Below, piece by piece: positions 24,168 through 28,883 of a DNA stretch of 64,000 bases. Under the pieces are notes generated by a model, which saw only the letters and a program-made list of their open reading frames with translations, was not told the origin of the DNA and made no database searches. Location of the stretch: contig NZ_CANMXB010000001.1 of assembly GCF_947501785.1 (NCBI RefSeq), positions 1,693,048-1,757,047 of the forward strand, written 5' to 3'. Both the position numbers and the translations under genes were made by a program. Positions within the stretch are counted from its first letter, which is position 1, and every line of letters begins with the position of its first letter. The DNA comes from an uncultured Litoreibacter sp. GTDB taxonomy: Bacteria; Pseudomonadota; Alphaproteobacteria; Rhodobacterales; Rhodobacteraceae.

Positions 24168-24302
24168 GCGTATCCTTTCAGTCAGAACCCTTCACATAGA
24201 TGCTTCAAAAAGATTCTCAACTCCCCGCCACACATCGACTTGCACCCCTAGGTCGGACTCCTTAAACCCACGATAATTTGCGCGAACTTGGGGACTGAGA
24301 TC

Positions 24303-27300
24303 ATGCCAAAAAGAACCGATATCAACTCGATCATGATCATCGGCGCCGGTCCCATCATTATCGGCCAGGCCTGCGAGTTCGACTACTCCGGCGCACAAGC
24401 CTGCAAGGCCCTGCGCGAGGAAGGCTACCGGGTCATCTTGGTCAACTCCAACCCCGCCACGATCATGACCGACCCCGAGATGGCGGATGCCACATACATC
24501 GAGCCGATCACGCCAGATGTCGTCGCCAAGATCATCGAAAAAGAACGCCCCGACGCACTTCTGCCCACCATGGGCGGGCAGACCGGCCTGAACACCTCGC
24601 TGGCGCTCGAAGAAATGGGCGTGCTCGAAAAATTCAACGTGGAAATGATCGGCGCGACCCGCGAAGCCATTGAAATGGCTGAAGATCGCAAGCTGTTCCG
24701 CGAAGCCATGGACCGCTTGGGCATTGAGAACCCGAAAGCCACCATCGTCACCGCGCCCAAAGACGCGCACGGCAAATATGACGTCAAGGAAGGCGTCAAA
24801 ATCGCCCTCGACGCGCTGGAAGAAGTGGGCCTGCCGGCCATCATCCGCCCTGCCTTTACCATGGGCGGCACCGGCGGCGGCGTCGCCTACAATCGCGACG
24901 ATTATGAAGCGATCTGCCATTCCGGCCTCGACGCCTCCCCCGTGGGACAAATCCTTGTGGATCAATCTCTTCTGGGCTGGAAAGAATATGAGATGGAGGT
25001 CGTTCGCGACCACGCCGACAACGCCATCATCGTCTGCGCCATCGAAAATGTGGACCCGATGGGCGTGCACACAGGCGATTCCATCACCGTCGCACCCGCC
25101 CTGACGCTGACCGACAAAGAATACCAGATCATGCGCAACCACTCCATCGCCGTGCTGCGCGAAATCGGGGTGGAAACCGGCGGCTCCAACGTGCAATGGG
25201 CCGTGAACCCCGCCGATGGCCGCATGGTCGTGATCGAGATGAACCCGCGCGTCTCCCGCTCCTCCGCGCTGGCCTCCAAGGCCACAGGTTTCCCTATTGC
25301 CAAGATCGCCGCCAAACTCGCCGTGGGCTACACGCTAGACGAGCTGGACAATGACATCACCAAGGTCACACCCGCCTCGTTCGAGCCGACAATCGACTAC
25401 GTCGTCACCAAAATCCCCCGCTTCGCGTTCGAGAAATTCCCGGGCTCCGAGCCCTATCTGACAACGGCGATGAAATCCGTGGGCGAGGCCATGTCCATCG
25501 GCCGCACCATCCATGAGAGCATGCAAAAGGCGCTCGCCTCCATGGAAACCGGCCTGACCGGTTTCGACGAAATCGACATCGACGGCATGCCCGGCGTTGA
25601 CGCCGTCACATGGGGCCCCGCCGCCGAAGGCGACATCATCCCGCGCATCGTGGTGGGCAAGGATGCAACCGCGCAGGAAGCCATCGACAAGACGCTCACC
25701 CGCGAACTGTCCAAGCAAACCCCGGACCGGCTGCGCGTCATCGCCCACGCCATGCGCTTCGGGTTCAGCAACGATGAAATCAACGAGATCAACCAATTCG
25801 ACCCATGGTTCCTTGCCCGCATCCGCGAAATCATCGCCGCCGAGGCGACCCTTGCCAAAGACGGGTTGCCTATGACGGAAGACGGCCTGCGTGAGCTGAA
25901 AATGCTGGGCTTCACCGACGCCCGCCTCGCCAAACTCACAGGTCGCAACGAAAACGACGTCCGCAAGGCCCGCCACAACCTGGGCGTCACAGCCTGCTTC
26001 AAACGCATAGACACCTGCGCCGCCGAATTCGAGGCGCAGACCCCCTACATGTACTCCACCTACGAGGCCCCGATGATGGGGGAGGTCGAATGCGAGGCCC
26101 GCCCCACCGACCGCAAAAAGGTCGTCATCCTCGGCGGCGGCCCCAACCGCATCGGCCAGGGGATCGAATTCGACTATTGCTGCGTGCACGCCTGCTACGC
26201 CCTGACCAAGGCGGGCTACGAGACGATCATGATCAACTGCAACCCGGAAACCGTGTCGACCGACTACGACACCTCTGACCGGTTGTACTTCGAGCCTTTG
26301 ACCTTCGAACACGTCATGGAAATCCTCCGCGTGGAACAATCCCGCGGCGAGCTGCACGGCGTCATCGTACAATTCGGCGGTCAAACGCCCCTGAAGATCG
26401 CCCAGGCCCTGCAAGACGAAGGCATCCCCATCCTCGGCACCACCCCCGACGCCATCGACCTTGCCGAAGACCGCGAGCGCTTCCAGCAGCTCGTCCAATC
26501 CCTCGGCCTCAAACAACCCCACAACGCGCTCGCCCATTCCGACGCTGAAGCCTTTGAAAAAGCAAAAGAAATCGGCTTCCCCCTCGTCATCCGCCCCTCC
26601 TACGTCCTCGGCGGTCGCGCCATGGAAATCGTGCGCGATCAGGCCCAGCTGGAACGCTACATCTCCGAGGCCGTCGTCGTCTCCGGCGACAGCCCGGTGC
26701 TCTTGGACAGCTACCTCTCCGGCGCGGTCGAGCTTGACGTCGACGCGCTCTGTGACGGCACCCAGGTCCACGTCTCCGGCATCATGCAGCATATCGAGGA
26801 AGCCGGCGTGCATTCCGGCGACTCAGCCTGCTCCCTGCCGCCCTACTCCCTCGACGCGGACGTCATCACTGAAATCCGCCGCCAGACCGAGGCGCTGGCA
26901 AAAGCCCTCAACGTCGTGGGCCTGATGAACGTGCAATACGCCATCAAATCAGGCGAAATCTTCCTGATCGAGGTCAATCCTCGTGCATCAAGAACCGTCC
27001 CCTTCGTCGCCAAGGCCGTCGGCTCCCCCATCGCCGCCATCGCGGCCCAAGTTATGGCCGGGGCCAAGCTCAAAGACTTCGACCTCGTCGACCCGATGAT
27101 CGACACCTTCGCGGTGAAAGAGGCCGTCCTCCCCTTCGCCCGCTTCCCCGGCGTCGATACGATCCTCGGCCCCGAAATGCGCTCCACCGGCGAAGTCATG
27201 GGCTCCGACCCCACCTTCGCGCGCGCCTTCCTCAAGGCGCAGATGGGCGCAGGCACGGAATTGCCGCAAAACGGCACCGGCAAGGTCTTCATCTCCATCC

Positions 27301-27665
27301 GCAACGAGGACAAGACCCCCGCCATGCTGCAGGCCGTGAAAACGGTTCACGCGCTCGGCCATAAGCTGCTCGCCACCCGCGGCACCGCCGCCTGGCTGAC
27401 CGAAGCAGGTCTGGATGTAGAAACGGTAAACAAAGTCTACGAGGGCCGTCCTTCGGTGGTCGATCAGCTCAAGGACGGGCTCATCTCACTGGTCTTCAAC
27501 ACCACCGAGGGCGCCCAGGCGGTCGAAGACAGCCGCGACATCCGCTCCATCGCGCTCTACGACAAAATCCCCTACTACACGACCGCCGCCGGCTCCCAAG
27601 CCGCCGCCATGGCCATGCAGGCAAGGGTTGAGGGGGAATTTGAGGTTAGGGCGTTGCAGGGGTGA
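24303..27665 (+). CDS. carB: Carbamoyl-phosphate synthase large subunit
   Basis: 1120 residues; two homologous ATP-grasp halves that make carbamoyl phosphate for arginine and pyrimidines. The N-half begins [30 protein letters not shown] in outline, and the second half restarts with [22 protein letters not shown]-terminal MGS-like allosteric domain ([26 protein letters not shown]) would bind nucleotide and ornithine effectors. The ATG at 24303 is used; one at 24288 adds five atypical residues. It marks the left edge of the accessory patch that follows. Confidence 0.98.
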
Positions 27666-27710
27666 CGTTGGGCTCTTGAAAGGCTTGTCGATTACTCCCA
27701 ATTGTTAGGG

Positions 27711-28112
27711 ATGGGAAGCGAACCAAAATCTCAAGCATACTCAGAACGCTACGCGACTTGGCGTCACCTTGATGGAATCAGATATCAAATAATTCAGCTT
27801 TCGATTGCTTTTATTGGCGCAGTCGTAATTCTTACAGACATTGGTGACGGTTCGTTCCCACCTTGGATGTATTTTCTAATCGGTCTTGTCTACCTCGCAC
27901 TTTGGGGCGTCTTGGCAAAAGTAAATTCCGCCATTCGTGGAAATGGGGCCGCCCTGCGCGAATTTGGAAAGACTATAGGTGACGATAAACTACCCGACGT
28001 TTCTCAAAAAGAACGATCCGTCTTCTTCTACATTGAGCTTGGCTATTTCTTGTTAGGCGCAACCTTCTTACTAGCAGCAATTCTATCAACCTTTGGAACA
28101 ATAGAGATTTAA
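27711..28112 (+). CDS. Three-helix small membrane protein, putative effector of a TIR defence module
   Basis: 133 residues from the ATG at 27711; a TTG at 27702 is the only other in-frame start after the carB stop. A polar, aromatic N-terminal helix (SERYATWRHLDGIRYQIIQ) leads into hydrophobic segments at about 27-43, 50-71 and 103-127. A charged loop (residues 71-102) lies between the second and third. The shape recalls SLATT-like membrane effectors of nucleotide-signalling defence systems, but I cannot assign it to that family. The gene is much more AT-rich than carB. Its TAA overlaps the next ATG (TAATG), so it is co-translated with the TIR gene. Function inferred. Confidence 0.75.
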   Translation: MGSEPKSQAYSERYATWRHLDGIRYQIIQLSIAFIGAVVILTDIGDGSFPPWMYFLIGLVYLALWGVLAKVNSAIRGNGAALREFGKTIGDDKLPDVSQKERSVFFYIELGYFLLGATFLLAAILSTFGTIEI

Positions 28113-28753
28113 TGTTCAACGTTTTTACCAGCTATCACCATCATTTGGATCAGGACTTCAAAGAGGATTTTGTAACTTGGGGCACGCGGTGCGGTCTCAT
28201 CAACGATTACTCAGTTAACACTGGGGAAATTGACGAAACCTTACCAAACGAAACAATAAGGCAAACTATCCGTGACTACTATTTGCGAGACTCAGAAGTA
28301 ACCGTCCTTCTTTGTGGTAAGGAAACGCGTTTTCGAAAACATGTAGATTGGGAACTGAAGTCAACAATGATCAACGGGGCGAAGAACAAAAAATCTGGGA
28401 TATTGGTAATAGACTTACCCACATCAGATTCGTTTAGTTGGCATACATCTTACTTTGGTGAAAAGGAGCTAATTTATCCAGAAAAGACAACTGGTTGGTT
28501 TTCCATCGATACTGAAGAAGACTGGAAAAGCCGCTTCCCGAACCTTCCTAGGCGAATAATCGAAAATATGAGAAAATGGGACGTTAATATTTCTATCGTT
28601 CCATGGGAAAGAGTCTACGGCCATCCGGATCGGCTGAAGTTTTTGCTTTCTGAAACGGCTAAGTCAGGAAAGACGAACAATTACGATACCTCGCGAATAA
28701 TGCGTACTAAGAACTACAATCCTAAAACCGACTTCTTCGACCAACGTACATAG
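28112..28753 (+). CDS. ThsB-like TIR domain protein (DUF1863 / MTH538 type)
   Basis: 213 residues. The first 100 follow the TIR-like fold of DUF1863 proteins and Thoeris ThsB: opening strand FNVFTSYHHHLDQDF, SEVTVLLCGKETRFRKHVDWELKSTM (strand, loop, helix), then SGILVIDLP. Glu81 in the WEL motif aligns with the Glu of the RRWVRYEI segment I recall in ThsB and is the candidate catalytic residue for NAD breakdown. Residues 130-213 form an extension ending NNYDTSRIMR, which I recall in other stand-alone DUF1863 proteins. Sampled lines are about 33-37 percent GC, far below the flanks. It is coupled to the membrane protein upstream; no ThsA is present. Confidence 0.8.
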   Translation: MFNVFTSYHHHLDQDFKEDFVTWGTRCGLINDYSVNTGEIDETLPNETIRQTIRDYYLRDSEVTVLLCGKETRFRKHVDWELKSTMINGAKNKKSGILVIDLPTSDSFSWHTSYFGEKELIYPEKTTGWFSIDTEEDWKSRFPNLPRRIIENMRKWDVNISIVPWERVYGHPDRLKFLLSETAKSGKTNNYDTSRIMRTKNYNPKTDFFDQRT

Positions 28754-28883
28754 ATACTTCCAAATGAATGGGCTGTTGAGCGGATCGTTCTGCGCCGGTG
28801 GCGCATGGTCCACCCAAATCACCTCCGCAAAACCTCAAATCCATGCTCAACTCCCCGACATTACCCACCAAAGGAGTTTGCCC

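Follow-up and report, generated by a model that had tools for sequence, protein, structure and literature searches.

A three-helix membrane protein and a ThsB-type TIR protein encoded behind carB in Litoreibacter: a candidate Thoeris-like anti-phage module

Analysis of a 64,000-nucleotide stretch from an uncultured Litoreibacter sp. (contig NZ_CANMXB010000001.1, positions 1,693,048 to 1,757,047; hereafter the window) revealed two overlapping genes, encoding a 133-residue membrane protein and a Toll/interleukin-1 receptor (TIR) protein of the ThsB type, which probably constitute a compact alarm against viruses, because the two families pair recurrently and because the site that holds them carries defence-like genes in related strains. 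We lean towards reading the pair as a two-gene Thoeris-like anti-phage module, in which the TIR protein would produce a signal derived from nicotinamide adenine dinucleotide (NAD) and its partner would damage the membrane. The features of the pair are as follows.

27711-28112, + strand: membrane protein gene, 133 residues, ATG start, TAA stop at 28110-28112
27735-27797, + strand: polar N-terminal helix (residues 9-29 of the membrane protein), the best-conserved part of the family
28112-28753, + strand: ThsB-type TIR protein gene, 213 residues, ATG start at 28112
28352-28354, + strand: codon of the candidate catalytic Glu81, with its partner Phe5 at 28124-28126

Both open reading frames were found on the plus strand where the initial annotation had placed them, with stop and start codons that read TAATG and have one base in common; an in-frame TTG at 27702 is an alternative start of the membrane protein gene and would give 136 residues. 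At E <= 1e-3, 171 relatives of the TIR protein were returned, and a profile search returned 294 of the membrane protein (six, including itself, in a single-sequence search); the two genes are therefore not chance reading frames.

Pairing and properties of the two families

Scans with the TIR alignment supplied the best 80 of 329 confirmed reference-genome loci and 2 viral-contig loci, 82 in total, of which a few are near-copies of one another. Of the 82 loci, 14 have a TIR gene of the ThsB-like subfamily next to a gene related to that of the membrane protein; the latter lies upstream of the TIR gene in 12 (with broken frames at L011), shares one open frame with it at L057, where the TIR follows helix 3, and adjoins a second TIR copy at L036. 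The reverse test drew on overlapping samples of 385 class, 394 family, 390 order and 398 phylum genomes, with at most ten candidates scored in most genomes, and located the membrane family in nine genomes including that of the window, with an adjoining TIR gene in seven. One of these seven, G566, carries a TIR gene split by a transposase, presumably IS630-like; the two remaining genomes, G539 and G608, hold only fragments of the membrane family, and their fetched contigs contain no TIR. Judged by their scores, G591, G386 and G484 correspond to loci L015, L023 and L076 of the TIR scan, and the new pairs are G566, G805 and G975. The outcome that the initial annotation had named as fatal to its proposal, families that never co-occur, is contradicted by both counts.

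Comparison of the distance matrices of both proteins across 16 pairs gave a Mantel correlation of 0.79, a value partly inflated by related hosts or common ancestry, and none of 10,000 permutations was as high. On the TIR tree (83 rows, partial rows L009, L078 and L083 left out, branches assessed by Shimodaira-Hasegawa-like approximate likelihood ratio support only), the membrane-partner label changes five times, at least three of these changes being forced by starred branches, compared with 15.6 changes after shuffling, none of 500 shuffles giving so low a number; near-copies favour such clustering, and the branch of L076 is long. Labels were set by hand for L011, L049, L051, L057, L065, L077 and four added rows, and L036 was fixed as SLOG. 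The partnership thus appears clustered on the TIR tree, yet not of single origin. Two readings of individual loci were not adopted. A true gene fusion in L057 was rejected, as this locus retains the GGGAGG and TTG seen in L036, where the genes are separate, and two proteins are possible. An actinobacterial member is not claimed from L023, the record of which is titled Enemella evansiae, a title that may be wrong; L023 was not relied on because it is identical to G386, from the window's own family, over the 400 bases checked, membrane gene included.

The TIR protein matches PF08937 (ThsB_TIR) with 55.8 bits (E 6.4e-15, cut-off 21.2), and the five best solved matches (ranks 1-5) to its AlphaFold2 model (predicted local distance difference test, pLDDT, 89.1) are all ThsB, in agreement with the earlier assignment to the DUF1863/ThsB-type fold. 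Phe5 and Glu81, the latter proposed from the outset as catalytic, show no variation across the 30 homologues aligned (out of the 120 listed; an observation at sequence level), Glu81 is also kept in 16 of 16 homologues of a second alignment, and it falls within the stretch aligned to solved ThsB (6lhy/9b7d), opposite their Tyr-Glu. According to the accessible text of a recent study, staphylococcal ThsB2 needs such a Phe/Glu pair (PMC12578639). TIR matches were also found in 143 plasmid records, among them L094 (plasmid NZ_CP034763.1, Klebsiella, ~5 kb), which encodes a TIR relative (41% identity) and for which no membrane partner is annotated.

The model of the membrane protein (mean pLDDT 88.8, 74 sequences) comprises three long helices at residues 4-44, 51-89 and 104-127, as expected from the three hydrophobic helices noted initially. 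Conservation is concentrated in the polar N-terminal helix, where the mean frequency of the top residue reaches 0.90, compared with 0.58, 0.56 and 0.44 in the three membrane segments. This helix carries the motif Y-x-x-R-Y-x-T-x-R-H-x-D-x-x-R-x-Q-x-x-Q, and Y10, R13, Y14, T16, R18, D21, Q26 and Q29 are invariant in the 74 rows. The distribution of charges suggests a topology with the N-terminus inside and the C-terminus outside, and the conserved Tyr/Arg/Gln-rich helix, predicted to be cytoplasmic, would suit a charged ligand or the TIR partner.

The window protein stays below every Pfam and NCBIfam cut-off, has no PADLOC match and no match to SLATT_1 or 8xMP (PF24838) at E <= 1, and none of the viral structure models matches its own model at E <= 0.001; a viral-contig scan with six close family members likewise returned no relative. 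Among 18 family members scanned, weak signals were obtained for SLATT_1 (13 of 18 at E <= 1, best 1.1e-3, which we infer to lie below the 41-bit cut-off), for 8xMP (7 of 18 at E <= 1, best 0.012; cut-off 30 bits) and for the PADLOC 4TM effector (2 of 18, best 3.1e-4), and plainly unrelated families reach similar scores in the same scans, e.g. Neurensin with 0.0058. Profile comparison by hhalign gave 0.3% against SLATT (3 reference proteins, 1 above cut-off) and 0.7% against seven true 8xMP proteins, and in this comparison the SLATT and 8xMP reference sets fail to match each other too. With weak sequence matches and negative profile comparisons, we rejected a straightforward placement of the membrane protein in SLATT or 8xMP.

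Other partners of the TIR subfamily

To identify what else occupies the place of the membrane protein, genes within three positions on each side of the TIR gene were clustered at the same 82 loci, clusters being defined as connected components. A mixed SLOG/TIR cluster, which also contains TIR_2 proteins, occurs at 36 loci, a second TIR at 35 and a helical family at 24. Members of the latter are ~160-230 residues long, the longer ones with one hydrophobic N-terminal segment (e.g. L003, L004, L006, L020, L033, L044 and L053), and in scans of two members nothing in Pfam or PADLOC matched at E <= 0.01. At 2 of the 82 loci, L049 (Microvirga flavescens) and L051 (a metagenome-assembled Methylobacterium sp.), a SIR2-STALD gene of the ThsA type lies 4 bases upstream of the TIR gene; the L049 protein matches PADLOC ThsA1 with E 1.4e-191, and its L051 counterpart was placed by clustering only. 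Both stretches (L049:6563-9294 and L051:6566-9266) contain the ThsA-type gene, the subfamily TIR and a second TIR in a row, a Thoeris-type arrangement. At L065 the partner slot is filled by an 8xMP protein (PF24838, 2.4e-10), and the island at L036 (4663-8615) combines a membrane-TIR pair, a 391-residue TIR_2 protein and a SLOG-TIR pair. Since the same TIR subfamily also adjoins SIR2-STALD ThsA, SLOG proteins and 8xMP, the membrane protein would stand in an effector slot, and this sharing of the slot is the strongest argument for regarding it as the effector half of a Thoeris-like system.

The variable site behind carB

The pair directly follows a gene that we take, from its sequence, to be carB, and occupies a segment delimited as follows.

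24288-27665, + strand: carB (carbamoyl-phosphate synthase large chain; name presumptive, start codon provisional), upstream boundary of the site
27666-28774, strand not assigned: cargo segment, from the carB stop codon to the point where similarity to sister genomes returns

Both genes are AT-richer than their surroundings: GC content is 44.0% in the membrane gene and 41.7% in the TIR gene, where carB has 62.1% and the window as a whole 60.4%, and third-position GC content is 39%, 46% and 82% for the membrane gene, the TIR gene and carB, respectively. The low GC noted in the initial annotation thus holds, whereas its figure of 33-37% can apply to sampled lines of the TIR gene only. An imperfect inverted repeat (27627-27647 / 28831-28851, 81% over 21 nucleotides), the left arm of which falls within the end of carB, brackets the cargo and may be due to chance.

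The C-terminal 254 residues of carB have a match in all 21 genus genomes, that of the window included, and mean GC in the first 600 bases behind carB is below 50% in 15 of the 21 (averaged over bins). The genomes G900 and G892, also of this genus, each have a single, different low-GC gene between carB and the point where similarity to the window returns, at 28787 and 28775, respectively. Neither the membrane nor the TIR family was found behind carB in the other 20 genus genomes (1.5 kb searched; 605 bases in L117); in two other genera of the bacterial family, represented by G566 and G975, the pair lies within ~0.5 kb behind carB. The site is thus a variable cargo site in the genus.

The cargo was characterized by a PADLOC scan of 12 chosen open reading frames, one per genome, from among the 20 other genomes of the genus, and 8 of the 12 gave a match at E <= 1e-3, the remaining four giving none; the scan had no random-gene control. 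Matches include dCTPase (1.1e-125), DruM2 (6.5e-105, a match that also fits general type II methylases), PDC-S60 (3.7e-33), PDC-M68A (3e-27) and RmrA (4e-18), and half of the eight matches are weak or depend on widespread motifs, namely RmrA and capP (metallopeptidase/helix-turn-helix), E2 (SEC-C) and PDC-S32. The G892 cargo is a DUF4062 protein (3.3e-9; PDC-S60 3.7e-33), a group described in the accessible part of one report as TIR-like antiphage NADases (PMC13174449), and the G900 cargo gave sub-threshold matches to AbiJ_NTD4 (0.0035) and PDC-S32 (8e-5). Within the limit set by the missing control, this same-site cargo in sister species supports the defence context proposed for the pair.

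Taken by gene type, cargo at the carB site in the genus resembles dCTP deaminase, DruM2/type II methylase, DUF4062, HNH and ImmA/IrrE genes (site records: window 27666-28774, L101-L105 and L110-L125). Transcription of all cargo from carB was considered and rejected, the cargo reading frames of L113, L116, L118 and L123 lying on the opposite strand. In L120 (G1373), carB is followed by a gene of 209 residues and one for a membrane protein of 212 residues, which matches 8xMP below threshold (0.0013); the two may form a further cassette of two genes with a membrane effector. If the pair is a defence module, the carB site is also a place to seek further defence genes in the genus.

Proposed mechanism, alternatives and relation to known systems

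In the module that we favour, phage infection would trigger the TIR protein to convert NAD+ into an ADP-ribose-type messenger. This messenger, or the activated TIR itself, would bind the partner at its conserved cytoplasmic head, rich in Tyr, Arg and Gln, whereupon the membrane protein may oligomerise and permeabilise or depolarise the inner membrane, so that the infected cell would be stopped by membrane failure. A bolder and more tentative proposal is that the pair represents a further Thoeris type, in which a ~130-residue three-helix protein, far smaller than the ThsA proteins found among the 82 loci, might read the ADP-ribose messenger directly through its cytoplasmic helix and open the membrane without a separate ligand-binding domain. 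If true, one TIR lineage would have been fitted with very different effectors, i.e. SIR2 proteins, SLOG proteins and two small membrane proteins that sequence comparison does not relate to each other. The membrane version would be small enough for full dissection and would offer a direct test of a 2022 prediction that, as far as its accessible text states, small TIR-adjacent membrane proteins answer ADP-ribose derivatives.

Several observations weigh against the module as proposed. The membrane family was not found in the fetched stretch at 68 of the 82 TIR loci (some stretches stop near the TIR), so that the TIR often works with another partner. Of the seven genomes in which the reverse test saw the pair, three had already been reached through the TIR and one is the window itself, and the inflation of the Mantel correlation belongs here as well. 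Under the topology suggested above, a one-frame product of L057 would place the TIR outside. Moreover, Foldseek returned no PDB match for the membrane protein model at E <= 0.001, and no known type of nucleotide-binding domain is recognisable in it.

In the main rival reading, the TIR would itself be the killing NADase, and the membrane protein would act as an anchor or phage sensor that restrains the TIR at the inner membrane and releases or clusters it once infection upsets the membrane. Adjacency and correlated distances fit a protein-protein complex, the best-conserved, predicted cytoplasmic helix is a possible docking surface, L057 holds both proteins in one open frame, and a recent TIR-like system is, in the accessible text, a direct NADase (PMC13174449). 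We nevertheless regard this explanation as unlikely, as the TIR subfamily adjoins SIR2-STALD ThsA and SLOG proteins, which accessible descriptions assign to systems with a signal-making TIR. It appears more improbable still that the two are ordinary passengers doing housekeeping or signalling work that has nothing to do with phage: the link to phage is a predicted one and the membrane family has a match in just 7 of 394 sampled genomes of the bacterial family, but the scattered occurrence, the foreign base composition and the exchange of cargo, in part defence-like, at one site argue otherwise. Two small overlapping low-GC genes at a variable site would also fit a toxin-antitoxin-like pair serving stability or stress, with a toxic membrane protein neutralised by the TIR and no phage trigger; we consider this very improbable, given that Glu81, needless for an antitoxin, is kept in every aligned homologue of both sets and that very different proteins would have to fill the toxin slot.

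Returning to the Thoeris-like module, the described effectors of types I, II and IV are, in the sources accessible to us, SIR2-SLOG, TM-macro (transmembrane-macro) and caspase-like proteins. The locus displays a ThsB-type TIR, a Glu with its Phe (read from the alignment) and an adjacent, co-inherited gene with a putative effector role. It resembles type I Thoeris in the ThsB-fold TIR with a Phe/Glu pair and an adjacent partner gene, and members of the same TIR subfamily in L049 and L051 follow a ThsA-type gene, but it differs in that ThsA is absent and the partner is a 133-residue membrane protein without SIR2 or SLOG. The absence of ThsA asserted initially is borne out locally; elsewhere in the genome no STALD match was obtained, but this search was silent in control genomes too. 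With type II (TM-macro ThsA; His-ADP-ribose) the module would have its outcome in common, membrane perturbation after an ADP-ribose-type signal as described in the accessible text of PMC11204291 and PMC12847820, yet the window partner has three helices only and no macro domain. Type IV employs a caspase-like protease effector, and the 133-residue partner has no protease domain. Domain scans and the model found no SIR2, SLOG/STALD, macro or caspase-like protease domain in the partner, consistent with the initial description.

Also comparable in arrangement are pairs of a TIR and a two-transmembrane SLATT protein in Firmicute phages, for which the accessible part of the paper predicts an effector regulated by ADP-ribose derivatives (Viruses 2022, PMC9503650), and SLATT genes were noted in 2020, likewise in accessible text, in systems with TIR effectors (PMC7159879). 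In both the 2022 pairs and the window a TIR gene adjoins a small membrane gene; the window family differs in its weak SLATT matches, its ThsB-type TIR and the lack of relatives in the viral contigs scanned. To 8xMP (PF24838) the membrane protein is alike in being small and of similar length, and a true 8xMP occupies the same slot in L065, but the scattered matches and the profile comparison reported above set the families apart. The SLATT protein of DRT10, reported in accessible text as a membrane partner needed for phage defence (PMC12632851), is comparable as a membrane partner but works with a reverse transcriptase and a non-coding RNA rather than a TIR. In the openly searchable literature, mostly titles and abstracts, we recognised no paper describing the membrane family. 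The initial idea of a TIR with a membrane effector holds in that the families co-occur and the TIR fold is real, but it is less new than supposed: the principle, as the accessible text of PMC9503650 indicates, is already in print as a prediction from 2022, and the three-helix family is a new variant of it.
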